DNA from: Candidatus Obscuribacter sp.
Lineage (GTDB): Bacteria; Cyanobacteriota; Vampirovibrionia; Obscuribacterales; Obscuribacteraceae
Assembly: GCA_021772095.1 (NCBI GenBank)
Contig: JADYXR010000133.1
Coordinates: 62,001 to 126,000 of the forward strand
Direction: 5' to 3'
DNA: 64,000 bases
Position 1 is the stretch's first letter. Every line of letters starts with the position of its first letter. The notes under the pieces are model-generated. The model searched no databases. It saw only the letters and a program-made list of their open reading frames with translations, and had not been told where the DNA came from. This document shows, one piece after another, positions 29,950 through 47,300 of the stretch. Made by a program: the position numbers and the translations under genes.

Positions 29950-30765
29950 ATGAATTTAAGTTTGACAAACAAACGTGTGGTTTTGAGCATAGTATCGCTC
30001 CTGGTGGCACTCGTTTTCACGTGTTCTGCAGCATATGCGGCGGCGTTGAAAAAAGACGTAGACTTGGAGCCGCTTTTCCAGGGATATGACGGTGCATTTG
30101 TTTTGCTCGATTTAAATACGAACAAATTTGTCCGCTATAACAAAACACGATGCGCCAAACGATTCGCACCTTGTTCGACTTTCAAAATCTTCAACGCGCT
30201 AGCTGGCCTCGACTCCAAAGTGATCTCAGGGCCTGACGATAAGAAGAAATGGGACGGCAAGAAACGAATGGTTGATTCATGGAATCGTGACCATACTTTA
30301 GAGACCGCAATGCAAGAATCCACCATCTGGTACTTCCAGGAAGTCGCCAAAGACGTTGGCGAAGAGCGCATGAAGAAATACATTCAAGCGGTCGGCTACG
30401 GAAACCAAGACATCAGCGGCGGTATCACGAAGTTTTGGTTAGGCGGGTCGTTGGCGATATCGGCTGACGAACAAGTCGCTTTCCTCAAGCGCCTTTATAA
30501 CAATGATTTGCCATTTTCGAAAGAGGCGATGGAAACCGTCAAGAAGATTCTGATTGTCTCTGACGATGGATCCAGCATCATGCGCGGCAAAACCGGCACT
30601 GATATGGTGGACGGAAAGACCGTGTTGGGTTGGTTTGTGGGCTATGTAATCGAAGATGGGAAGCCGTATATCTTCGCGACCAATATTTCCGCGGATGACA
30701 AAGTGAATGGACGTCTGGCAAGAACGATCACGCGTTCTATATTGCACAACCTCGGGCTCCACTAA
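29950..30765 (+). CDS. Class D (OXA-type) beta-lactamase
   Basis: Signal peptide; PCSTFK (SxxK), STIWYFQ at SxV position, YGN, FWLGGSLAIS, KTGT. Confidence 0.9.
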   Translation: MNLSLTNKRVVLSIVSLLVALVFTCSAAYAAALKKDVDLEPLFQGYDGAFVLLDLNTNKFVRYNKTRCAKRFAPCSTFKIFNALAGLDSKVISGPDDKKKWDGKKRMVDSWNRDHTLETAMQESTIWYFQEVAKDVGEERMKKYIQAVGYGNQDISGGITKFWLGGSLAISADEQVAFLKRLYNNDLPFSKEAMETVKKILIVSDDGSSIMRGKTGTDMVDGKTVLGWFVGYVIEDGKPYIFATNISADDKVNGRLARTITRSILHNLGLH

Positions 30766-31178: not shown

Positions 31179-32297
31179 CTAACGTGAGTTGACCTGATCG
31201 AGATTTGCGAGTTGAGCCTCGAGATCTGGAGTGGCAGCAACACCGCGTTTGAGCACATACATCGTCGAGAGGGTCGATGCCAACCAGGCCAAGCCGATGG
31301 CGTGAAGTATATGGCGTTTGATGACTGTTGGTTCGTGCAGGAAGTTACCGGTCACGCTGGAAATCAGTAAGGTGATTGGGTCTGGATTGATCAAACTTCC
31401 GGTCTTCACCCATGTCAGCATCTGTATTCCGACGAGCGTGAACGACACCCATGAGAGCCCCGCAACTAACTTCGTGCTCAGATCGATATTGCGAACATCG
31501 AGATAGCCAGCCTCGTCGAACGAAACTCTGATCGGATAGCGCAGATAAAGTCCTATTAGTGCTGATACTACTGCCGATACCACGAATGAAACTTCATTTG
31601 AGTACCAACCGCAAGCGAGATAAAGTGCAGCCCCGGAGAACCAGGCATAAGACAAGGTAAGACGAGCCTTAGAGATCCATTGACGGGAAGTGAAGAAATA
31701 AACTGCGCAAGAAACCGTAGCCAGCATCACGAACAAAAATCCAGTAATTGTTTCAGTAGCGAGCTTGGCTCGTTCTTCCTGGTAACGCGTCAAGAGGGTT
31801 GCCGCCTCAGGGTCTACGCCGAATAATTCGTAGTAATCGACTCGGAATGATTCGTATGCTTCAGTATTGTGAAATTCATCAATTCTCCAACCTAAGAAGT
31901 GTTTGATACCACGCTCCATCAAGCCCCGTTCAGGTCCGAACAAATTGACTAAGAATGCGGAGAACACTGTGTTCTGGCGCTCATCGTTCTGAACTGAAAC
32001 AGGGTGCAAATATTTGATATCTTCACTAAATCGGCTCTTGGCCCAGGTGCGAAGCGAATCGAGTGCCACCGCATTTTCATCAGAGAAGTCAGAGTGGATA
32101 AGCACCATTGCGATATTTGAGGCAATCAATTTGTCAGCGAATTGCGGATTGGGCTGCGTCTGCAATTCAGGCGCATTCGTCTCGTACCGTGGGTCTACGG
32201 TTGGAGTCAAATCCGGAACGTACTTGGAGAAGTACGACAAGAATGCCGCCACAAGGACGATTAGCAACGCGCCGACAGTAAGTTTCCGTTTAGACAT
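31179..32297 (-). CDS. Multi-pass membrane protein of unknown function
   Basis: N-terminal TM, soluble ~150-aa domain, then several TMs. Confidence 0.65.
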   Translation of the reverse strand: MSKRKLTVGALLIVLVAAFLSYFSKYVPDLTPTVDPRYETNAPELQTQPNPQFADKLIASNIAMVLIHSDFSDENAVALDSLRTWAKSRFSEDIKYLHPVSVQNDERQNTVFSAFLVNLFGPERGLMERGIKHFLGWRIDEFHNTEAYESFRVDYYELFGVDPEAATLLTRYQEERAKLATETITGFLFVMLATVSCAVYFFTSRQWISKARLTLSYAWFSGAALYLACGWYSNEVSFVVSAVVSALIGLYLRYPIRVSFDEAGYLDVRNIDLSTKLVAGLSWVSFTLVGIQMLTWVKTGSLINPDPITLLISSVTGNFLHEPTVIKRHILHAIGLAWLASTLSTMYVLKRGVAATPDLEAQLANLDQVNSR

Positions 32298-32658
32298 CGA
32301 ACGGCTCCATCAACCTGACAAGCTAGAAGTATAGTCTGTTGGCCAGGCTTAACAGCCTCTTTTGAACAAGCCTTATGTTAAAAGGTTTTCGGTTAACTTG
32401 AGGAACAAAGCCTGTCTTCACGTACACGGTGCCGGCTAAGTCAGAGTGACGAATGCCATGTTTACACTGAGAAGGGCATACACACGAGCGTTCAACGCCT
32501 CACGCATTACAGTGTAATGGCGATTAGAAAGTGGTGCCTCCTGGTGTCAGCCAATGGGTCTTGTAATTGAAGTTCATTCAACTCGAATTCCGAATTTTCT
32601 AGAATCCGAATTTTAGAATTGTGAACGATTCCTCTTGTTCTACATTCCACAGTACTTA

Positions 32659-32700
32659 TTGTCGAGTATTCGACTGGTTGTATTGTCGAATACTCAACAA
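32659..32700. repeat. Imperfect 16-bp stem-loop
   Basis: TTGTCGAGTATTCGAC-N10-GTCGAATACTCAACAA, one mismatch. Confidence 0.7.
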
Positions 32701-32798
32701 GCCCAGTAACGATGAAAAACAGCCTCGTTGCCTGGCAATACGATCTAAAGTTCAGACGGGCGCTGCATTTGCCTAAAATTTACCAAAAACGCAAAACA

Positions 32799-32841
32799 AT
32801 TGTCGACAATACGAATGTTCGTATACCTACTACATCGTAGG
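32799..32841. repeat. Run of consecutive short palindromes
   Basis: ATTGTCGACAAT (32799-32810), ATACGAA-TG-TTCGTAT (32809-32824), CCTAC-N6-GTAGG (32826-32841). Confidence 0.65.
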
Positions 32842-34065
32842 ACTGCCACCATCTGCGATACCGGAACCATTAGCCTCCGGCTGACGCAATTTTTCGATGC
32901 AAATCTTGTCTTGATAGATCACATCCACAACCGCGTCTACGAGACGCTGCCCGCCGACTGAGTTCATATGGACGGTGTCGTAAAACAGACTGGATGGAAA
33001 CTTAGTGTCATCGTTCAAGTTGGCAAAAACAAACCCGCGCTTTTCCGTCGAGGTCCGCACAGCCTCGAGGTATTCGTCGTAAATACCTGGTGGCATCATT
33101 CTGACGTTGAGCGATGTCAGCGGCATATTCACCACAACTACTCGCACGTCGTTCTTTTTGGCAGTGTCCAAAAGTTTGTCGAAGAACTGTTTTTCGACTT
33201 TGAACAGCGAGTCGTGGCGCGACTTATAGCGTTCTGAATACTCTTTTGTATTGTCGCTGAATTGACGTTCGCGGTCCGGCGGTTCTACTAGCATGCCGCG
33301 TTCCAATTCGGAAGCCATGTCCGCGGTCAACAACTTATCCAGCTGCTCGGGAGTAAATCCGTTACCCCCGGCTGCGCCGGAAGAGCCGCCTGCAATGCGC
33401 CTGGCGACATCGCTCAGCAGTCCTTGCACGACTGGTTTTGCTTGCCACAGGTAGGCAACTTTTCCGATCAAATAATCGGTTCTATCCATGATGTTCGGAA
33501 GCGCAAGATCGACGATCGGATCGATATTAATCAACTTGCTCAAATACTTGAACGTCGGAGTCACGCCCGGGCAGCGCACTTTGTTATCCATGAAGTCGCG
33601 AGCGCACAGACCAAGAACGATAACTTTGGGTTTTCGCTTTCCAGTTAAAACAGACTCAACAATCATCCAGTCATCGGAAATCATTCCGCCCGGCATTGCG
33701 AAGTTAAAGCAAGAGGCGCTCGGTATGCCAACCTTGGCGGCAATGCGTTCTTCAGTATAAACACTGCGATGATGGTCGGCGTAATCCATGGGCTTCTTCA
33801 AATGGTGGGCATCCAACATCGTCAGCGGATGGAGAAGCAGTGACGAGCCTACGTAAACGACATCCGGAGCCTTTGTTTGCGATGCATAGTCATGCACCGA
33901 CCAGGAAATCCAGCTGTGATCTTTCGGCAGCTCCTCTATGGAAGTTTTGGCAAAAGGGTTCGTCAATGAAAGCGCGAGATTGACTGCGAGCACAAGGCCA
34001 ATTACAGCCAGGGCACGGCTTTTCGTGACCACGGTCTTGAATTGGTTTTTGTCGGTTTTGCTCAT
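32830..34065 (-). CDS. SGNH-hydrolase-like protein (cassette A partner of MBOAT)
   Basis: N-terminal TM; DVVYVGSSLLLHP block I, FNFAMPGG, YDTVHMNSVGGQRLVD (DxxH). Confidence 0.75.
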   Translation of the reverse strand: MSKTDKNQFKTVVTKSRALAVIGLVLAVNLALSLTNPFAKTSIEELPKDHSWISWSVHDYASQTKAPDVVYVGSSLLLHPLTMLDAHHLKKPMDYADHHRSVYTEERIAAKVGIPSASCFNFAMPGGMISDDWMIVESVLTGKRKPKVIVLGLCARDFMDNKVRCPGVTPTFKYLSKLINIDPIVDLALPNIMDRTDYLIGKVAYLWQAKPVVQGLLSDVARRIAGGSSGAAGGNGFTPEQLDKLLTADMASELERGMLVEPPDRERQFSDNTKEYSERYKSRHDSLFKVEKQFFDKLLDTAKKNDVRVVVVNMPLTSLNVRMMPPGIYDEYLEAVRTSTEKRGFVFANLNDDTKFPSSLFYDTVHMNSVGGQRLVDAVVDVIYQDKICIEKLRQPEANGSGIADGGSPTM

Positions 34066-34096
34066 AGCGTAATTTGGGTTCGCGTTCCTTTAGATT

Positions 34097-35545
34097 TTAG
34101 AATTGGAAGTAGATAAATTTCGGTGATGTATCCGGTGAAAAAACAAGCAGTAAAAGCACCATGGCAGCGACATACGCAACATCCAGGAATGGTGGCATTA
34201 CGATCGTTTTCTTATTCGTTAAACCGGCAATGATTTGTCCGGCGAACAATAATCCCACCACCAGCGGCAACAACATGAAGATGGAAGGATCTGTGATAGT
34301 CGGCAGTGTGAGCGCGAAAGCGTTGGCTGGCGAGGATACCATTTGTGGTACCAGTAGTAGTTTCCAGATGATCTGGCATGCGGATTCGAATGTATCGGCT
34401 CTGAAAAACACCCAGCCGATACAAACGAAGTGAAAAGTCACAACGATGGAAACGAGCTTCCCAAGCTGACTATCAAGAGCGCTTCGAATCGACGGAATCG
34501 GAGCGACGAATTTGCGGAATTCTTTGTGCGCGATTAACAGCACTCCCTGATACGCGCCCCAAACTAAATAATGCATGGCAGCGCCATGCCACAGTCCGCC
34601 CAAAAGCATTGTCAGAAACAGGTTTCGGTAGGTCAGCCATTTGCCGCCCTTGCTACCGCCCAGCGGAATATAGAGGTAATCGCGAAGCCAGGTCGACAGA
34701 GAAATATGCCAGCGGTGCCAAAATTCTGAGATGCTGCCGGCAAGATAAGGCAGCGAAAAGTTAATAGGCACCTTGAAGCCGAATAGCTGTGCGGAGCCTC
34801 TAGCGATGTCCGTATAACCCGAGAAATCGAAGTAGATCTGGAAAGCAAATGCATACACGGCAAGCCACAAGTCAGGACCGCTCAGCAATTCAGGATGCGC
34901 AAACGCACTTGCCACCACGACTGACAGGTTATCTGCAAAAATCACTTTCTTGAACAAACCGAAAATGATGAGTTTAAATCCCTCATCCATGTCCTTCAGT
35001 TTGAATTGTTTTTCTTCTTCGAGCTGAGGAATAAAATCCTGATAACGCTTGATGGGTCCAGCGATTTGCGTCGGAAAGAAACTCGGGAAAAGCGCGAATT
35101 GCCAGAACGATTTGATCGGCTTATCACCACGATAGATGTCGCTTATGTAGTGAATAAATTCGAACACGAAAAACGAAATGCCGAGAGGCAAAATGATCTG
35201 CCACGTGATAGGCGACAATTGCGCGCCTGTCGGGGTCAGTGCCTGATTGATAACGTCGTGGCTGAAATAGGCATACTTGAAGATGCCCAGCACAACTAAA
35301 TTAGCGATGACCGTGCCGGCCAGAATGAGCTTGCGGTGTTTCGTACTGCGATGAAGAAGCAGTCCCAGACCGTAATTTAGTAAAGTCAACGCAAAAATCA
35401 GCAAACCGTAAATTGGTTTCCAGCTCATGTAGAAGACATAACTGGCGACAAGAAGCAGCATCGTGCGCCATTTTGTGGGCACGAGCCAATACAATCCGAA
35501 GACGACTGGCAAAAATAAAAGATAGGATACCGAGTTAAAAAGCAA
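34097..35545 (-). CDS. MBOAT family O-acyltransferase (AlgI/DltB-like)
   Basis: SEFWHRWHISLSTWLRDYLYIPLGGSKGG, LLGGLWHGAAMHYLVWG; TTG start (LLFNSVSYLLFLP) inferred by alignment with cassette B. Confidence 0.93.
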   Translation of the reverse strand: MLFNSVSYLLFLPVVFGLYWLVPTKWRTMLLLVASYVFYMSWKPIYGLLIFALTLLNYGLGLLLHRSTKHRKLILAGTVIANLVVLGIFKYAYFSHDVINQALTPTGAQLSPITWQIILPLGISFFVFEFIHYISDIYRGDKPIKSFWQFALFPSFFPTQIAGPIKRYQDFIPQLEEEKQFKLKDMDEGFKLIIFGLFKKVIFADNLSVVVASAFAHPELLSGPDLWLAVYAFAFQIYFDFSGYTDIARGSAQLFGFKVPINFSLPYLAGSISEFWHRWHISLSTWLRDYLYIPLGGSKGGKWLTYRNLFLTMLLGGLWHGAAMHYLVWGAYQGVLLIAHKEFRKFVAPIPSIRSALDSQLGKLVSIVVTFHFVCIGWVFFRADTFESACQIIWKLLLVPQMVSSPANAFALTLPTITDPSIFMLLPLVVGLLFAGQIIAGLTNKKTIVMPPFLDVAYVAAMVLLLLVFSPDTSPKFIYFQF

Positions 35546-35831
35546 ATCGGCTCTCGCGTGAGAAAACCACCTGTGTATGTTATGCGAAGTAGACAAGAGT
35601 TCGGTGGCTCTAAACTACTTTTTATCTATTTAGGCTGTCGTCAGCAACCCGCGTACGTGTTAATGTGTGGGCGTTGTAAGTCAAAAACACCGATATTGAA
35701 GCTTCATACGGTGTTGCATTCGAATCGTTCGCGACGCCAAAATTTCCGGGCAGTTATATGTTCAGGATTACTAAACGATATTCCGACGATCGATGCGCGA
35801 AGTTTATTCACTGTTGTGGGCGGTTGCGTTG

Positions 35832-36701
35832 ATGCTGTTTAGCAAGAAATTGGTTTCGCTACTGATACCGTTTGTGACTCTACTGTCCACGCTTTTTTTC
35901 ATGACTTCGTGCGGCAAGAAACAAGCGACTACCGACTGCGAACAGCTTCAAGCAGTGCGTGGCGACCGCAGCCTAACAGTCGGCTACATCGCGCCAAGCA
36001 AAGGAATTTTAGGACTCGGCGACGACAGCGTTCTTGTTGTTTATCTGCATGGATTGAGTGCCAACTGGCAGCAACCATTTCAATTTCCGTGGAAACATAC
36101 TTATGCGGACACAGTCACACACTTCCGTCCAGGCATCACATTCATGTCGATGCAATACGGCGACAGCGGCAAATGGGTCGGACAAAACGGATTCGACGAT
36201 ATCACAACTGGTATCAGAACAATTTTAGAAAAATATCCCAGCGAGAAAATCGTATTGGCGGGATGCTCGATGGGCGCGTCCTCCGCGTTGAGTTATACAG
36301 CCAACGCACCGGATGATTTGAAGAAAAAGATCGTCGGCGTGGTGGCAATGTATCCAGCCGGCGACTTTGCCGAACTCCACGAGAAGACCACGACACCAGT
36401 CGTCAAATCCGCTCTGGAAGCCTGCTTCGGCGGCAAGCCCGAAAACGCGGAAGCGAAGAAACGCTACCTCGCGATGAGCCCGATTACCAACATCGATAAG
36501 TTTCCCAAGACCACAAGAGTCTACGTAATCTCCGCATCCGAGGATGTCACCATCCCTCCCAAACTTCAGGAAACCCTCACAGAAGAGCTCAAGAAGGGCG
36601 GTATCGACACGCGTTTTGAATCCGTCAAATGCTCACACGAACTGCCACCGCCGCACAAAAGTTTTTACGATGCACTGAAGTTTGCGCTCGACGGCAAATA
36701 G
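35832..36701 (+). CDS. Lipoprotein-like alpha/beta hydrolase
   Basis: Lipobox-like FMTSC; VYLHGLSANW; nucleophile elbow GCSMGA. Confidence 0.8.
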   Translation: MLFSKKLVSLLIPFVTLLSTLFFMTSCGKKQATTDCEQLQAVRGDRSLTVGYIAPSKGILGLGDDSVLVVYLHGLSANWQQPFQFPWKHTYADTVTHFRPGITFMSMQYGDSGKWVGQNGFDDITTGIRTILEKYPSEKIVLAGCSMGASSALSYTANAPDDLKKKIVGVVAMYPAGDFAELHEKTTTPVVKSALEACFGGKPENAEAKKRYLAMSPITNIDKFPKTTRVYVISASEDVTIPPKLQETLTEELKKGGIDTRFESVKCSHELPPPHKSFYDALKFALDGK

Positions 36702-36745
36702 ATCGTTCATTCAAACATAATCACATCACGGACGAAATTCAAAAC

Positions 36746-37180
36746 ATGGACAATAACCTGCTGACCCAACGCTCTCAACTGACTGAGACTGTGTATTTCG
36801 AGTTTCTTCCAGGCAAATATAGAGGACAAACATTCACTGACGAATCGGTCTTTATCGAGGACGAAACGTTTGGATTATTGGAACCGATCGTCCAAAAGCA
36901 TGTGTCCGAATGGAATCGCAGCGCTTTCACTGCAATAACCAAAGAGACTTGGGAGACAATCATTTCCGACTTCGAGGTCTTCAAGCAAAAGCTCGCTGAA
37001 GCATCGAGCGTAAGCGATATCAAATCCGACATCCGCCTGATCAACAATTGGACGGAAGAAACACTCGACAAAGATTTTGCGAAAAACAAAACGGAATTGA
37101 TCGGCATGATCGATAACCTCACCGAGTGGCTTCGCACCAATTTGCAGAGCCAGGAGATTGTCTCAATTCTCGGCGTCTGA
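36746..37180 (+). CDS. Hypothetical protein
   Basis: 144-aa ORF from ATG at 36746 (MDNNLLTQRSQLTETVYFEFLPGK); the upstream part of the track ORF overlaps the hydrolase gene. Confidence 0.55.
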   Translation: MDNNLLTQRSQLTETVYFEFLPGKYRGQTFTDESVFIEDETFGLLEPIVQKHVSEWNRSAFTAITKETWETIISDFEVFKQKLAEASSVSDIKSDIRLINNWTEETLDKDFAKNKTELIGMIDNLTEWLRTNLQSQEIVSILGV

Positions 37181-37324
37181 CGCTCCCTTGCAGGGGCTTT
37201 CTGATAATGGAAAAAAGTCCCTTGAATCAGCTCAAATTGCGATTTTTCGCCTATTATGGATCTGGGCACATCATTTCGTTCGCGAAGTGCTGAGCGCTAA
37301 ACTGGCACTCTGGATCGTTTTACT

Positions 37325-38392
37325 ATGTCGGTTGTTATCTCTGGAATCTGTGGCTTTGTGGGCAGCTCGCTTGCGCGTTGGCTAAAAGAATCGCAGCCGG
37401 ATTTGGAGATCTTCGGCTTCGATAATTTCAGCCGTCCGGGCAGTCACCTCAACCGCGCCGTGCTCGACGGGATGGGCATCAAGGTGTTTCATGCCGACGT
37501 GCGCCAGGCCAGTGACGTCGACAATATGCCGAAAGCGAAATGGGTCATCGACGCCGCCGCCAACCCGTCAGTGCTGGCAGGAGTCGACGGTATATCGTCT
37601 TCGAAACAAGTTATCGAATCGAATTTATACGGAAGCGTCAATCTGCTCGAGTACGCCAAGCGTCATCAAGCGGGCTTCATCCTGATAAGTTCGAGTCGCG
37701 TTTATTCAATCGCTGAACTTCAAAAGATTCCATTGGCACCAGGGGCGGAGTCATACGTTTTTGATGAAAAACAACAGTCACCACAGGGAGTATCAGCGAA
37801 TGGAATCGCCGAGAGCTTCTCGACAGCCGCGCCGATATCGCTTTATGGTGGCACAAAACTGGCTTCCGAGGTTTTAGCCCTCGAATACGCGGCGATGTCT
37901 AACATTCCTGTTTGGATCAATCGCTGCGGTGTGCTCGCTGGTGCGGGTCAATTTGGTCGCCCCGATCAAGGCATTTTTTCGTATTGGATTCACTCGTATC
38001 TCGCTCGTCAGCCGTTGCGCTACGTCGGTTTCGGCGGCTCCGGTTTACAAGTTCGCGATTGTCTCCATCCATCTGATTTGTCTTTGTTGATCAAACAACA
38101 GATGGACACCGCCAATGATGGCAGACCACAAATATGCAACATCGGCGGCGGCAAAAACAGTGCCATGTCGTTGAAACAACTTTCAAACTGGTGCTCGGAG
38201 AAATTCGCCGAGCACACCGTTTCGACCTCGTCGGATACAAGAATGTTCGACACGCCATGGATCGTCATGGATAACGGTTTGGCAAAGAACACCTGGAAAT
38301 TTGAGCCAAAAGTTTCCTTGAATGATATTCTCGAAGAGATCGCGGTTCACGCAAAAGAGCATCCAGAGTGGCTGAAGGTGTCGGCGATATGA
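37325..38392 (+). CDS. NAD-dependent epimerase/dehydratase (extended SDR)
   Basis: ISGICGFVGSSLA Rossmann motif, SLYGGTKLASE (YxxxK). Confidence 0.9.
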   Translation: MSVVISGICGFVGSSLARWLKESQPDLEIFGFDNFSRPGSHLNRAVLDGMGIKVFHADVRQASDVDNMPKAKWVIDAAANPSVLAGVDGISSSKQVIESNLYGSVNLLEYAKRHQAGFILISSSRVYSIAELQKIPLAPGAESYVFDEKQQSPQGVSANGIAESFSTAAPISLYGGTKLASEVLALEYAAMSNIPVWINRCGVLAGAGQFGRPDQGIFSYWIHSYLARQPLRYVGFGGSGLQVRDCLHPSDLSLLIKQQMDTANDGRPQICNIGGGKNSAMSLKQLSNWCSEKFAEHTVSTSSDTRMFDTPWIVMDNGLAKNTWKFEPKVSLNDILEEIAVHAKEHPEWLKVSAI

Positions 38393-39150
38393 AATCACAA
38401 CCACCGACCTCCGGAGAATGCACCAAACTATCTATCATCGTCCCTGCTCGAAACGAGGAGGGCTGTATCGTTTCCACACTCCAGCATCTCGATCTCGAAC
38501 TCGGACTAAACAAAATTCCGCACGAAATCGTCGTCGTCGATGATGGCAGTACTGACTCCACATGGACCATTCTGACTGATTTAGCGCAGACCATGACGAC
38601 GTTGAAACCGACTCAGAATCCGGGACCAGCCGGTTTCGGGCGAGCCGTTGCCTGGGGTTTGAGTCAGGCGGAAGGCGATGCGATGGTCATCATGATGGCT
38701 GACGAATCAGACGATTGCAGAGATGTCGTCCGCTATTGGGATAAGCTCAACGAAGGCTACGACTGCGTGTTCGGCAGCCGCTTCATCAAAGGCGGCGGTG
38801 TGATCGATTACCCCGCACACAAATTGCTGCTGAACAGAATGGCGAACATGTTTATAAAAGTCTTGTTTGGCATCCCGCACAATGACTTTACCAACGCCTT
38901 CAAAGCTTACAGACGCACCGCCATTCAGGGCTGCTCACCACTGATTGCAGCGCACTTCAATCTGACTATCGAGATTCCTTTGAAAGCGATCGTAAGAGGT
39001 TATACTTGGGCGACAATTCCAATCACCTGGAGAAACAGACGAACTGGTTTGAGCAAACTGCACATACACGAGATGGGCAGCCGGTATCTGTTCATTTGTT
39101 TATACGTTTGGTTAGAAAAAAATCTGACCACTGACTATCGCAAAATATAG
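38389..39150 (+). CDS. Family 2 glycosyltransferase (dolichyl-phosphate mannosyltransferase-like)
   Basis: [47 protein letters not shown] overlap with the preceding epimerase. Confidence 0.93.
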
Positions 39151-39211
39151 ATCGTGTCGTAAACGACTGACATTGTATCGAATTTTGCGAAGAACTCATG
39201 GAGGCTCGAGG

Positions 39212-40297
39212 TTGGGAACCATTATAGTCACGGGCTCTGCAGGGTTGATCGGTTCAGAGGCTTCGGAATATTTCGCCTCAATCGGATATCAAATCGAAGG
39301 CATCGACAACGACCTGCGTCGATCATTTTTTGGTGACGAGGCGTCGACCGACAGAAATCGCCGACGGCTGGAAAAGAAGCTGGGCGCGGCTTACCGGCAC
39401 CACTCCTGCGACATCCGCGACACTGAAGCGATAATGAAACTATTCCAGGAGCATGGCGGTTCTGTCACTGCGATTATCCACACAGCCGCGCAACCATCGC
39501 ATGATTGGGCAGCGACAAATCCGATCGAAGACTTCACAGTCAACGCAAACGGAACGCTCATCCTGCTAGAAGCGATGCGAAAGCACTGTCCCGACGCCGT
39601 GTTTATAAACATGTCGACTAACAAAGTGTACGGAGACACTCCCAATCGCTTGCCTCTGGTCGAACTCGACAAACGATGGGAAATCTCTCCTACACACGAG
39701 TTTCAGAACGGCATTCCTGAATCTATGTCCGTCGACAACTGTTTGCATAGTTTGTTCGGTGTTTCGAAACTGGCGGCGGATGCCGCTGCGCAGGAGTACG
39801 GCCGCTACTTCGGTTTAAAAACAGCATCTTTCCGCGGTGGTTGCTTGACCGGTCCCAATCACTCGGGAACCGAACTGCACGGCTTCCTCGCGTATCTGAT
39901 GAAGTGCGTCGTCACCAGACGCCCATACAAAATTTACGGATACAAAGGCAAACAAGTCAGAGACAACATTCACAGCACAGACCTGGTGCGCGCCTTCGAC
40001 CATGTTCTTAAAGCACCGCGCATGGGCGAGGCATACAACATTGGTGGCGGCCGCACGAGCAATTGTTCAATGCTGGAAGCAATCGATCTGTGCCAGGAGA
40101 TCGCCGGCGAAAAGCTCGACTGGACTTACGTCGACGAAAATCGAGTCGGCGATCACATCTGGTGGATCAGTGACAACTCTAAGTTTATGGAACACTACCC
40201 CGGCTGGCGCGTAGAGAAAACGATTCAAGATATTCTCGTCGACATCTACGAACAAAACAAAGAACAGTGGCTAGCTACCAGCGCTGAAGCCCGATAG
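39212..40297 (+). CDS. NAD-dependent epimerase/dehydratase (CDP-paratose 2-epimerase-like)
   Basis: TTG start after [64 protein letters not shown]. Confidence 0.88.
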
Positions 40298-40322
40298 TGT
40301 TTGGAGAGCGTGGTTGCAGTAA

Positions 40323-42134
40323 CTATTTGACCGGTCTGGTAGTTTCGGAACTGGTTGTTTCCTGGCCGGTTGTTCCCTGACTGGTTGTTCCCTGACTGGT
40401 TGTTCCCTGACTGGTTGTTCCCTGACTGGTTGTTGCCGGGCTGGACGTTTCTTGATTGGTGGCTCCAGAAGCCTGTTTCTTTTTCAACAGATAGATCGTT
40501 TCTTTTCCAGGCACCAGCCAGCGTTCAAACGGATAAGTCTGCACCACATCATAAGTCGGAAGAGGTTCCGGACTGACAAGCCACTCGTTGTTGTTGTACG
40601 GGTACGGATTCTGACTGAGCGGTGGAATCGGTTTGCCTGACGTATAAACCTGCCAGAAGTTAAACTCCATCCCGCCATCCAGCGATTCTGCCTTGACACC
40701 GCGTGCGGTGGCTGCTTCAATCGCCTGCCACCGCGCGCGGTTCCAGGTGAAGTAATCGTGAGTGCCGGCAAAACTGTACCAGGCGAAAAATAATATACTG
40801 AGCCCGGACAGAAACTGAAACAGGCGCGGCACAATCGCGGTCTGGAGCGGGTATTGAAATGCCATTCGAATAAAGACCATGGCAAGAAACGGAAGACAAA
40901 AAACCAGATAACGGTCATAGAAGCTGTGTACAACCAGCGTGACAAAATAAATCACCATCAGCAGAAATGCGACCGAGGCAAACTTGTCTTCCTGAGCCAT
41001 ATTGCCCGATCTAAACGCTTTGATAATCCGAAAAAAGAAAAGGACAAAGTAAGTCCAGAAAAATGCGCTGCCAGCACCGCAGAGAAGCGTTATCGCTTTC
41101 CATACCGCAGGTGGTGCCTGAGTCCAGGCGGCAAGATTCGCATCCGTCAAAGTCATCGGTCCTAGACCAGTGTTGATGATAAGGTTCTCGGACAACGGCA
41201 TGGTTTGCCCGTTCCACCACAAGCCGCCGACGATCATCACTATCAGTTCAGTCAACAACATAATCAAGAATACTCGCGTTTTCTTTTCGACTGAGCCCAA
41301 GATGCATGGTGTCACGATAAGCAGCAGTGGCAGCAACATCCCGCCAAGATAGAGCGACAAACGCACCACACTACCAAGCGTGACGATGGCAATCATCAAC
41401 GGTCCCTGCGCCACCAGTGTCATCAAGTATGTGTGCTCTACGGTCTCGCACCACAGATGACCAAAGGCTTGCACAGTGAACATCTTGTAGATGCCGACGA
41501 TCACCGCCGCAATAACAAAAGGCAAGACCGCATATAGAAATGTTTTGACTGACCGTTTATTCAACAACACATAGCCGACAGCAAAACTCAATGGAGTAAC
41601 AAGAGTGGCTTGTCGACTCAAACCAGCCAGCACAGCGGCGAGCACGCACAAGACAAAAATCATCATTTGCCCGCTGCCCCAGTATTGGACAAACGCCAGT
41701 GTTGATACCACTGACAGTGCAAGCGATGTGATGTCCGTCATGAATGAATGTGTCAGCGAATAGAACAATGGATTAGTTCCAACAAAGACGACCGCAAACA
41801 CGCGAAACCAGAACGAGGCGCCAATCTTCTTAACCAGATACCACGTCGCAACCAGCGTCACGAGGCTCCAGAACAGCGTGACAAATCGCAAAACGTCGAA
41901 CGAAAAGCCAAACAACAGGCTCGGCAACGCGCCGACAAAAATGTGCGTAGGACAAGTATTGAGCGTCCAACCGGTCAAAACATATTCGCCGGCGAGCAAC
42001 GAACGCACCATGTAGCCATAAATCCAATCATCATTGGTCGGAAAGTTGCCGTGAAACTGCCCAGCAATTTCCGCAATAACCAGGACGAGCAGCAAGACGC
42101 CGACGACTATGGGTTCACGATGATTTGGTTTCAT
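40323..42134 (-). CDS. GT39/ArnT-like multi-pass membrane glycosyltransferase candidate with repetitive C-terminal tail
   Basis: Many TMs, early loop with acidic residues (NFPTNDDWIYGYMVRSLLAGEY); C-term TTSQGTTSQGTTSQG. Confidence 0.7.
   Translation of the reverse strand: MKPNHREPIVVGVLLLVLVIAEIAGQFHGNFPTNDDWIYGYMVRSLLAGEYVLTGWTLNTCPTHIFVGALPSLLFGFSFDVLRFVTLFWSLVTLVATWYLVKKIGASFWFRVFAVVFVGTNPLFYSLTHSFMTDITSLALSVVSTLAFVQYWGSGQMMIFVLCVLAAVLAGLSRQATLVTPLSFAVGYVLLNKRSVKTFLYAVLPFVIAAVIVGIYKMFTVQAFGHLWCETVEHTYLMTLVAQGPLMIAIVTLGSVVRLSLYLGGMLLPLLLIVTPCILGSVEKKTRVFLIMLLTELIVMIVGGLWWNGQTMPLSENLIINTGLGPMTLTDANLAAWTQAPPAVWKAITLLCGAGSAFFWTYFVLFFFRIIKAFRSGNMAQEDKFASVAFLLMVIYFVTLVVHSFYDRYLVFCLPFLAMVFIRMAFQYPLQTAIVPRLFQFLSGLSILFFAWYSFAGTHDYFTWNRARWQAIEAATARGVKAESLDGGMEFNFWQVYTSGKPIPPLSQNPYPYNNNEWLVSPEPLPTYDVVQTYPFERWLVPGKETIYLLKKKQASGATNQETSSPATTSQGTTSQGTTSQGTTSQGTTGQETTSSETTRPVK
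40351..40440. repeat. 15-bp in-frame tandem repeat (about 6 units, 3 identical)
   Basis: CTGGTTGTTCCCTGA at 40381-40425 in three perfect copies, flanked by degenerate units; encodes (TSQGT)n. Confidence 0.92.
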
Positions 42135-42168
42135 AGCTTGCTAGGCAGCCGCCAAGCGGCGCTTGCGA

Positions 42169-43371
42169 CTACTTCTGCTGCACATTGCTTGACTGCGCGA
42201 GTGACCGTTTCGACATCGCTCCAGCGACGTATGTGAGGAATTTCTCGCCGCCCTTGCCGTTTAAGTGGACGCTGTCCGAGAAGTCGTCATGTTCGAACAG
42301 ACCCGGCAAATTCAAATCGACGAAGATTCCGCCGTTTGAGCGCACCGTAGACGATACCTGGTCAAGATATAACTTGTAAGTGTCTTTAGTTACCATGGCA
42401 AGGTTCTCAGCTGTCAATGGCGAGTTGCCTACGACCAGATCGATGCCCTCGGCTTTGCATAACTCGCAGAGCTTTTCGAAAAATCCGAACTGCTCTTTCC
42501 AGATCTTCATGCTGAACTGGCTATAGCGAACCCGGTATTCTTGCATGTTGTCGGCGAAGACGTTGTGCTTCGGATCGAATGGTGCCTGACCGACTTCGTC
42601 CGGCGCAAAATCTTCAGGAAGGTCCATCATAGCGAGCTTACGAAGCTCAATTGACGTTTTGACCGTATCAAAATTCGCGTTATCAGGTCGAACAATTCCT
42701 TGAACCACATGGTGCTGCCAGCTGGTCAGCTCCTGCTTGTGCCCATAAACAGACGATGCGCGACTGAGCAAGTGATCGAAGATCGAAAACACATCTTTCT
42801 TGCGGCAGATAATTTCGTATTCGCCAGTGCCACCAAGCTTACTGGTCGTCTTAAAAACGTCACTGCTGGCAGGCGATTTGAAAGTCGCATCGAAGAAATT
42901 TCTTGGCACCATCGTGCAATAAAGCGCTTTTGGTTTGGCACCATTCTCGACTAACGTGCGGGCCATGAAATATTGATCGGATGGCATCTGCCCAGGAATA
43001 GCCAGGCAGAATGTGGATTTATAAGGAGCGGCTGCTTTCTCTAATTGTGATTCCAAGTAAGTGCTGCGGTGATTTGTCAGCTGACTGATCGATTTTTTCT
43101 GATACGTGGCTTCGGCACCATAGAGCGCGCAAGTCATGTCTGACGCGCCCAGCAGAACGAGATCCGGTGTTGAAGGTTGCTTGGAATAATCGTTCAGCGC
43201 ATACCAGCTGCGACTACGAAAAGGCACGTCATAACCAAATTGCATTGGTTTATGATTCACGGCATAAGCAATGCCGACGCCGATATCCAATAGAGCAAAG
43301 CACAGCAACGCAATCGCAATGTCGCTTTTGGAAGCGGCTTTGATGGATTTACCGATACTGTTGAAATTCAC
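42169..43371 (-). CDS. SGNH-hydrolase-like protein (cassette B partner of MBOAT)
   Basis: TM N-term; DLVLLGASDM, FCLAIPGQMPSD, FSDSVHLNGKGGEKF (DxxH). Confidence 0.75.
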   Translation of the reverse strand: MNFNSIGKSIKAASKSDIAIALLCFALLDIGVGIAYAVNHKPMQFGYDVPFRSRSWYALNDYSKQPSTPDLVLLGASDMTCALYGAEATYQKKSISQLTNHRSTYLESQLEKAAAPYKSTFCLAIPGQMPSDQYFMARTLVENGAKPKALYCTMVPRNFFDATFKSPASSDVFKTTSKLGGTGEYEIICRKKDVFSIFDHLLSRASSVYGHKQELTSWQHHVVQGIVRPDNANFDTVKTSIELRKLAMMDLPEDFAPDEVGQAPFDPKHNVFADNMQEYRVRYSQFSMKIWKEQFGFFEKLCELCKAEGIDLVVGNSPLTAENLAMVTKDTYKLYLDQVSSTVRSNGGIFVDLNLPGLFEHDDFSDSVHLNGKGGEKFLTYVAGAMSKRSLAQSSNVQQK

Positions 43372-43386
43372 TCTTTATGGGGCTCT

Positions 43387-44835
43387 TTAGAATTGGTAGT
43401 AGATAAACCGTGGGGAAGAATCAGGAGCAAAAGCGACGATCATAAATATGAGTGCAGTGGCGTAAGCAATGCGATAAGCGCGCGGCACTTCTCTATTTGC
43501 CAGCTTCTTGATTGTTTCGCTCAGTATCACTTGACTGAACCAGAACACTGGCAACAACAATAAAATGCTCGAGAAGATCAGCGGATAATTGATCGCCGTG
43601 ACACTGCTCAGGCTGTGTTGAGCGTTAAACACACCTTGAAGGAAGAACATCTTCTGCACCATCTGCAGTCCCACAAGAATGTTGTCTGATCTGAAAATTA
43701 CGATACCAACGCAGAAAGAAGCGAAGGTGAGGGCAACCGAGAACATATGCCCAGGGCGGGTATCCAGGATCGATAAAAATCCGGGATGTTTTTCACGGAA
43801 GTGCGCAAACTCGCGATGCAACACAAGCAACACACCGTGATAAAAACCCCAGACCACCAAATGCCAACCGGCACCATGCCAGAGTCCGCACAGAGTCATG
43901 GTCGCGAGCAAATTGAATGCGGCCATGCCACGGCCTTTTTTCGATCCACCCATCGGGAAATAAAGATAATCACGCAGCCAACTACCGAGCGTGATGTGCC
44001 AACGCCGCCAGAAATCAGTGATGCTGCCGGAGAGATAGGGGAACTTGAAGTTGATTGGAACCTTGTATCCGAATAATTGCGCGGAACCACGGGCGATATC
44101 GGCGTATCCACTGAAATCGAAGTACACCTGAAACGAAAACGCAGCCGCCATAATCCATACATCAATAGACGTGAACTGCGCCTGATTGGCGAATCCGCCA
44201 GTGACGAACAAAGCCAGATTGTCAGCCAGAAGGACTTTCTTGAACAGTCCGTTCAAAATCAGGAAGCAACCTTGATCGAAATTCTCGCGAGTAAACTTGC
44301 TTTCCACCTTAAGTTGCGGCAGAAAATCTTGAACTCGTTTAATCGGACCAGCAATCTGCGTAGGAAAGAACGCAGGAAACAGCGCGAAAGACAGTGGATC
44401 CTTTACTGGTTCTGACTTACCTTTATAGACGTCAACCAGATAGTGAATAAATTCAAAGACGAAAAACGAGATGGCGAGCGGCAGAATGATTTTGATATCG
44501 AGTTTTTCGATGTGGACAAGCGGACTGGCCGCGAAGATTACCGTTTCTTCCAACAGATAGAAATACTTATAGAACGCCAGTGTCAGCAGGTTTCCAACGA
44601 CTCCGAAGATCATCCAGGCCTTCTTGTGCTCTGTGGATGCTCCAATTCGCAGTCCCAGCCAGTAGTTGACCGCGGTCAGCCCCAGGATAAGCAGGAGGTA
44701 AATCGGGCGCCAGGAGGCATAGAAGATGTAACTCGCCACGAGCAGTATCGGAACGCGCCATCTGAAGGGGCACATCCAGAAAAGGATTAGCACCGCCGGC
44801 AGAAAGAGTAAGTACTGTAGGGAGTTGAAGACCAA
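43387..44835 (-). CDS. MBOAT family O-acyltransferase (AlgI/DltB-like)
   Basis: TDFWRRWHITLGSWLRDYLYFPMGGSKKG, TLCGLWHGAGWHLVVWG; TTG start. Confidence 0.93.
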   Translation of the reverse strand: MVFNSLQYLLFLPAVLILFWMCPFRWRVPILLVASYIFYASWRPIYLLLILGLTAVNYWLGLRIGASTEHKKAWMIFGVVGNLLTLAFYKYFYLLEETVIFAASPLVHIEKLDIKIILPLAISFFVFEFIHYLVDVYKGKSEPVKDPLSFALFPAFFPTQIAGPIKRVQDFLPQLKVESKFTRENFDQGCFLILNGLFKKVLLADNLALFVTGGFANQAQFTSIDVWIMAAAFSFQVYFDFSGYADIARGSAQLFGYKVPINFKFPYLSGSITDFWRRWHITLGSWLRDYLYFPMGGSKKGRGMAAFNLLATMTLCGLWHGAGWHLVVWGFYHGVLLVLHREFAHFREKHPGFLSILDTRPGHMFSVALTFASFCVGIVIFRSDNILVGLQMVQKMFFLQGVFNAQHSLSSVTAINYPLIFSSILLLLPVFWFSQVILSETIKKLANREVPRAYRIAYATALIFMIVAFAPDSSPRFIYYQF

Positions 44836-46586: not shown

Positions 46587-47300
46587 TTAAAGCTGCTGGA
46601 AGATTTTTGCAGAGATCTCTGCCATCTTCTTAAGCGCGCCTGGAAAGTCATGATTGTCTTTCGTTCGTTCGCCGCAGAAATTGCTTATCACTCGGATGTC
46701 TGCAAACGGAACTTTCAGGATCGAACAGGTCTGAGCGATAGCGCCGCTCTCCATGGTTTCGATTCTAACCTTGAAACGTTTTTGATACTCGGCCGATAAA
46801 TCATTGGTACCAGATATGGTGGACACCGTTCCGACGTCACCGACGTTGTCTACCAGCGTGCGGAAGAAATTCATTAGAACGCCATGATCCGGCTTCACGC
46901 TTACAGTCGCCCACCCGGCGTCTTCGATCGACATCCAGCCGGTCTCAGATTTGACAACGGCGCCTTTCGGATTGACGATGGCGCCCTCATCCAACATGTA
47001 GTGGTTTATTCCGAGGAAGGAGGTGCAGAGGCTAACCTTCTGGTCAAAGCTTCCTGCCAACCCGATGCTCAACACGCCGCCATAAGCCTGCCGAGTCAGT
47101 TCTCGAGCGACCGCACCTGCCGCGTTGGCTTTGCCAACGCCTGTATGCAAAATGGAAATTGAGTCTAATTCGCGCGTTTCCCAAAGTGGTGGCACTTCAT
47201 CGTCGACCACACCGGCGCCTTGCAGCACGGCTTTGAATTCGACAGGTGATGCGACGGCGAGCAGCAGGCGCGTGGAATCGGCGAGAAGATTGGAAACCAT
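46587..47300 (-). CDS. mqnB: Nucleoside phosphorylase-like protein, probable futalosine hydrolase
   Basis: LLLAVASPVEFKAVL, TGVGKANAAGAVAREL, SIGLAGSF, IETMESGAIAQTC, RVISNFCGERTKDN. Confidence 0.8.
   Translation of the reverse strand: MVSNLLADSTRLLLAVASPVEFKAVLQGAGVVDDEVPPLWETRELDSISILHTGVGKANAAGAVARELTRQAYGGVLSIGLAGSFDQKVSLCTSFLGINHYMLDEGAIVNPKGAVVKSETGWMSIEDAGWATVSVKPDHGVLMNFFRTLVDNVGDVGTVSTISGTNDLSAEYQKRFKVRIETMESGAIAQTCSILKVPFADIRVISNFCGERTKDNHDFPGALKKMAEISAKIFQQL

Follow-up and report, generated by a model that had tools for sequence, protein, structure and literature searches.

Gene content of the locus

The window analysed here, a stretch of 64,000 nucleotides corresponding to bases 62001-126000 of contig C50, belongs to the fragmented 8.1-Mb draft assembly of Candidatus Obscuribacter sp., likely a non-photosynthetic relative of cyanobacteria. 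Within it, two pairs of putative acyltransferase genes, each made up of an MBOAT and an SGNH gene (cassettes A and B), flank genes for two extended short-chain dehydrogenases/reductases (SDR1 and SDR2) and two glycosyltransferases (GTs). A preliminary description, based on the sequence alone, had placed all of these genes in a single pathway for a doubly O-acylated surface glycan. Every open reading frame (ORF) named there was found where it had been placed; our analysis, however, divides in two what had seemed a single pathway.

Cassette A, on the minus strand, comprises SGNH-A (32830-34065), a DUF1574/DltD-like protein predicted to be the extracytoplasmic acyltransferase partner, and MBOAT-A (34097-35545), for which we prefer the start at 35545, which aligns with that of MBOAT-B, to the TTG at 35596, which would give a longer protein. 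Cassette B lies on the same strand and consists of SGNH-B (42169-43371) and MBOAT-B (43387-44835). Between the two, the plus strand encodes an alpha/beta hydrolase, probably a lipoprotein esterase (35793-36701; lipobox MTSC, identified by eye), an orphan ORF without family or detected relative (36746-37180), which had been listed from 36629 and probably starts at 36746, the TyvE-like SDR1 (37325-38392), a family 2 glycosyltransferase (GT2, 38368-39150) and the likewise TyvE-like SDR2 (39173-40297). They are followed on the minus strand by a GT-C-like, PMT_2 (GT39-like) glycosyltransferase gene (40323-42134). Family matches bear out the identities initially proposed for SDR1, GT2, SDR2 and the GT39-like protein. 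It should be added that the C-terminus of the latter (40323-40484) is a Thr/Ser-rich tail of tandem TTSQG pentapeptides.

Probable layered build-up of the locus

The locus was compared with those of 60 relatives, including the congeners G001 and G002 and a member of another genus, G009. The gene order in G002 (L016) is DnaJ-like gene, MBOAT-B, SGNH-B, hydrolase, MBOAT-A, SGNH-A and a minus-strand gene for a membrane protein that could be assigned to no family (31179-32297 in the window), which adjoins cassette A in G000, G001 and G002. G002 thus aligns with the window gene for gene on either side of a block of about 5.5 kb (36702-42168, assigned to neither strand), which is missing from its syntenic locus. 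Since only 3 bp separate the SGNH-B stop codon from that of the hydrolase in G002, the orphan ORF, which is the first gene of the block, SDR1, GT2, SDR2 and the GT39-like gene are all absent there. At the same site, G001 and G009 possess the DnaJ-like gene, MBOAT-A and SGNH-A and have no cassette B, hydrolase or block; the membrane protein gene is situated on the other side of cassette A in both G001 and G002.

These comparisons revise the grouping of genes, all of which are real, in two respects. The hydrolase, previously counted with the central genes, travels with the cassettes, because it is found between B and A in G002 and beside a relative of SGNH-B in G022. The GT39-like gene, previously attached to cassette B, belongs to the inserted block, because it is absent beside cassette B in G002, even though the two are co-directional.

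By parsimony, we consider it probable that the locus is a composite grown in three additions, with older, PatA/PatB-like cassettes and a newer, Gtr-like block. The first layer, common to G001, G002 and G009, would be MBOAT-A/SGNH-A beside the DnaJ-like gene, bounded in G001 and G002 by the membrane protein gene. The second, shared with G002, would have brought MBOAT-B/SGNH-B and the alpha/beta hydrolase, and the third, seen among the three congeners compared only in this genome, the 5.5-kb SDR1-GT2-SDR2 block with its GT-C gene. The locus would then show the accretion of envelope-modification genes at one chromosomal site. Several points weigh against this explanation. Just three congeners were compared, and loss elsewhere rather than gain here is possible, albeit less parsimonious; the assembly of the genome is fragmented; and GC composition across the window shows no break at the insert, so that the block is not marked as foreign. 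Furthermore, SDR2 has no catalytic tyrosine and its activity is not to be assumed, and no flippase gene is present in the block, the single GtrA of the genome being encoded elsewhere (C243).

SDR1-GT2-SDR2 as a recurrent module

Close orthologues of SDR1 and GT2 (61-68% identity) were found only in G025 and G034 among the 60 relatives, while G008 encodes distant SDR1 and SDR2; the cassettes are absent from the module loci of all three. SDR1, SDR2 and GT2 occur together in 16 genomes, counting that of the window, and their pairwise distances are correlated (Spearman 0.78-0.83, Mantel p 0.0005). In a phylum-wide sample of 292 genomes, including the window's own, 36 were found to contain SDR2 and 21 SDR1, and the nesting of SDR1 within SDR2 genomes was complete: every genome with SDR1 has SDR2, even on different contigs. 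Without the window's genome, 20/20 SDR1 genomes carry SDR2, as against 35/291 overall (hypergeometric probability ~8e-22, a nominal value that is too small, as kinship was not corrected for).

A scan of genome contigs for SDR2 returned more than 570 relatives, of which the best 80, from many phyla, were taken for neighbourhood counts. Not one of these 80 loci contains an SGNH relative, and an MBOAT is present in only two. Among the 45 loci with 5 kb on either side, SDR1 was detected in 15, GT2 in 14 and both in 10; a large protein with multiple transmembrane (TM) segments is encoded near 9/10 of the loci with SDR1 and GT2 and near 17/35 of the others (p 0.03). In 22/80 loci (L026, L068 and L036 among them) SDR2 adjoins a gene for a WecG/TagA/CpsF transferase, mostly lying directly upstream of it, and SDR1 and GT2 are nearby in 0/22 of these (p 4e-4 and 9e-4, respectively). 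The contexts of SDR2 are therefore mutually exclusive, being either a WecG-type transferase or SDR1 with GT2, and the simplest reading would be that the SDR2 product is used directly by the WecG-type enzyme or, after conversion by SDR1, by GT2. The central block is thus a module independent of the cassettes; it recurs in many phyla, and the gene found close to it is usually one for a multi-TM (GT-C-like) protein, which is exchangeable.

The nearest named SDR2 comes from a Candidatus Melainabacteria bin, and a match in the phylum sample, at G219:C7:46811-47845, has the same coordinates as one on NZ_CP117772.1, a plasmid of Nostoc sp. UHCC 0926, which identifies the sampled phylum as Cyanobacteriota. 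In addition, a relative of SDR2 with 53% identity is encoded at 436850-437956 of the phage record LR745206.1, a 635-kb uncultured phage genome.

The two SDRs

The best match among solved structures for both SDR1 and SDR2 is CDP-tyvelose 2-epimerase (RfbE/TyvE, TaTyvE; 1ORR, 9RL0), which is also the closest fold for SDR2: its predicted structure (mean pLDDT 87) matched 1ORR best, with a TM-score of 0.92 by target length. The catalytic triad of TaTyvE is Tyr164-Thr124-Lys168, and Asn125 of its TNK motif is essential. SDR2 retains the corresponding Thr149, Asn150, Lys151 and Lys199, as well as the NAD-binding Gly residues, and lacks the catalytic Tyr, whose position is taken by Phe in 83/84 homologues (Phe195 here) and by Leu in one. 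The contig scan had selected by the peptides HTAAQPSH and STNKVYG, which in part forces the residues within them to be conserved; position 195 is outside both. Of the 29 loci examined from an independent full-length search, 25 have Fx3K by motif and one has Tyr (L141), while in two the motif could not be assigned automatically; L142, inspected by eye, has Fx3K with TNN. Natural variants at the usual Phe position, with Leu or Tyr in L085 and L141, are thus rare in SDR2. Conversely, SDR1 keeps Yx3K in 23/23 sequences and has TNK replaced by SSR. The CDP-binding aromatic residues of TaTyvE, Trp207/Trp210/Phe211, are changed in both SDRs, and hence the nucleotide need not be CDP.

SDRs without the tyrosine are not necessarily inactive, for the UDP-GlcNAc 4,6-dehydratases PglF/WbpM are active with Met in its place (Mx3K; PMC8987622). 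SDR2 differs from these in its Fx3K and in having TNK where they have TDK, and it does not belong among the membrane-anchored dehydratases. We found no description of a Phe-substituted SDR epimerase in the open-access literature. The loss of a residue held to be the catalytic base of the epimerase family makes SDR2 a concrete target for enzymology.

A Tyr-less SDR2 might instead form a heteromer with SDR1, in which its role would be one of binding or regulation. The missing Tyr and the presence of SDR2 in all 20 other SDR1 genomes of the phylum, even where the two are unlinked, would agree with such a role. Nevertheless, we regard it as unlikely: SDR2 occurs without SDR1 in 15/36 genomes and stands in the WecG context without SDR1 nearby, it keeps the Lys, the TNK and the NAD-binding Gly residues, and the precedent of PglF/WbpM shows that SDRs of this kind can be active.

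For an SDR2 that is itself an enzyme, it is possible, if somewhat doubtful, that SDR1-SDR2-GT2 forms a route, shared across phyla and not yet described, by which an unusual sugar becomes linked to polyprenyl. SDR2 would then found a Tyr-less family of nucleotide-sugar SDRs (Fx3K; invariant Pro-Ser-His-Asp-Trp and TNK), the product of which would pass to a WecG-type transferase or, after SDR1, to a lipid-linked GT-C system. In the open-access literature we found the SDR pair described neither with GtrA nor with TagA; for the heterocyst polysaccharide island of Anabaena, this literature lists an epimerase and offers no sequence link to the module. The larger point is the conservation of an uncharacterised sugar module across many phyla.

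Glycosyltransferases of the block and comparison with Gtr systems

The best solved relative of GT2 is the Pyrococcus dolichyl-phosphate mannose synthase (DPMS; 5MLZ, 5.9e-19), with ArnC also close. By similarity, GT2 is predicted to be a polyprenyl-phosphate sugar synthase of the GtrB/DPMS kind; it has no TM segments here, and a homologue from Nostoc carries a fused GtrA/DPMS TM domain. The GT-C gene product, with about 12 TM segments, matches PMT_2 (29.2, cut-off 26.1). These similarities support the earlier suggestion of sugar-nucleotide modification followed by lipid-linked transfer. The GT39-like gene and the PMT_2 genes of G025/G034 belong to the same Pfam family and have no detectable pairwise similarity, whereas SDR1, SDR2 and GT2 are well conserved. 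In Gtr systems, the machinery that provides the donor is conserved and the terminal transferase is exchangeable (PMC11127046), and it is because the GT-C protein differs while the SDRs and GT2 are conserved that we liken the block to them. A polyprenyl-phosphate sugar synthase and an exchangeable GT-C enzyme are shared with both GtrA/GtrB/Gtr* O-antigen glucosylation and the GT136 pentofuranose three-component systems, the latter likewise having auxiliary epimerase genes. The block differs from both in devoting two TyvE-like SDRs to the donor and in lacking a flippase gene, owing to which we regard it as working like a Gtr system and not as a member of this group.

The single pathway of the preliminary description, with sugar block and both cassettes building one doubly O-acylated surface glycan, has in its favour the adjacency of the genes, the co-directional arrangement of the GT39-like gene and cassette B at a distance of 34 bp, and the position of the G025 module near an Acyl_transf_3 gene, which makes acylation of its product plausible in principle. 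Synteny does not support it, nor does it support two O-acylations serving the central genes: the cassettes stand alone in G001, G002 and G009, and the central genes occur without them in G025, G034, G008 and, as the counts of SGNH and MBOAT genes attest, across the best 80 SDR2 loci. With each occurring without the other in relatives, a finding that the preliminary description had itself named as refuting its proposal, a single pathway is rejected on synteny, and we deem it quite improbable overall; a functional link between cassettes and block may have been gained recently in this lineage.

Even less credence can be given to the idea that the inserted block is degenerate or mis-assembled and has no function. 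It is absent from congeners and begins with an orphan ORF, as such an insert might; on the other hand, every frame is open, GC content at third codon positions (GC3) of its genes is 0.58-0.60, the same as in the neighbours, catalytic positions are conserved, and the block is located well inside a 128-kb contig.

MBOAT-SGNH cassettes

Both MBOATs match PF03062 (MBOAT-A, 1.3e-33; MBOAT-B, 9e-26). SGNH-A exceeds the gathering cut-off of DUF1574 (PF07611; 36.8, cut-off 29.1) and weakly matches the DltD model, while SGNH-B scores below the former (21.3) and is homologous to SGNH-A, with G-x-S and D-x-x-H kept. The cassettes are, as initially noted, paralogous and co-oriented. The MBOATs share 49% identity and the SGNH proteins only 24%, and the cassettes must consequently be old paralogues; a recent duplication is ruled out by the latter value.

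His280 and His320 of the MBOATs are invariant across 16 homologues, as are the SGNH residues Ser75 (block I), Asp363 and His366 (block V D-x-x-H) across 16 sequences. MBOAT-A and MBOAT-B terminate in FIYFQF and FIYYQF, and each of the genome's ten MBOATs terminates in F-x-Y-[FY]-Q-F, matching FXYXXF, the hexapeptide that was shown to act as acyl shuttle in PatA and DltX (PMC12148441). With catalytic residues and hexapeptide intact in both, the cassettes are probably active and two-step O-acylation is their likely chemistry, which supports the acylation proposed before. DUF1574 has been listed with no known activity (PMC9487903), and the cassettes link DUF1574-like SGNH proteins to MBOAT acylation.

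The cassettes are an expansion across the whole family. In 22 family genomes there are 2-10 MBOAT relatives each; SGNH-B relatives are present in 36/36 family genomes sampled (4-21 per genome), and at the threshold applied none was detected in 24 genomes from outside the family. At another site in the genome (C77; L108, 8803-13018), one MBOAT gene is followed by three tandem SGNH genes, from which it appears that a single MBOAT may serve several SGNH partners.

Among known systems, there is a close likeness to PatA/PatB/Ape1 peptidoglycan O-acetylation, which also features an MBOAT that has invariant His and carries FXYXXF at its C-terminus, an adjacent SGNH protein with Ser and Asp-His, and an esterase-like hydrolase close by. 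In our case, however, the SGNH proteins are DUF1574/DltD-like rather than of the PatB family, the hydrolase has an alpha/beta fold and not that of SGNH, and the genome has ten MBOAT copies. The logic of MBOAT plus SGNH is common to AlgI/AlgJ/AlgX alginate O-acetylation too, but no alginate genes were seen around the cassettes, nor any AlgX-family Pfam match. Fold families are also shared with DltB/DltD, and the MBOATs match the DltB model as SGNH-A does that of DltD, but Dlt-type D-alanylation is rejected as hardly conceivable, given that these matches are weak and under curated cut-offs (DltB scores 187 and 166, cut-off 375), that no DltA exceeds its cut-off anywhere in the genome, and that FXYXXF is fused to the MBOAT instead of residing on a separate DltX microprotein.

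Proposed mechanism

The mechanism builds on gene content, intact motifs, layering, recurrence and the co-occurrence of SDR1, SDR2 and GT2, as read from the sequences; the individual reactions, the action of SDR2 ahead of SDR1, and all that concerns acyl group, sugar and acceptors are our inference. In the PatA/PatB-like cassettes, MBOAT would most likely take an acyl group from acyl-CoA and load it onto the Tyr of its C-terminal FXYXXF, from where it would pass to the serine of SGNH, which would acylate an envelope polymer; the alpha/beta hydrolase may remove the acyl group. The block would most likely perform Gtr-like extracytoplasmic glycosylation, in which SDR2 and then SDR1 would modify a nucleotide sugar, giving rise to an unusual sugar, GT2 would move the sugar onto polyprenyl phosphate, a flippase not encoded in the block would bring the lipid-linked sugar outside, and the GT-C enzyme would transfer it to an acceptor outside the cell.

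Other features of the window

RNA families were sought in the window and none was found. Upstream of the locus, the plus-strand gene at 29950-30765 encodes a class D beta-lactamase-like protein (NF012161, 263.7 bits, cut-off 250), which is also similar to the BlaR1 sensor domain. A futalosine hydrolase-like protein is encoded on the minus strand at 46587-47300, with a score slightly below the cut-off (119.4, cut-off 124.7).

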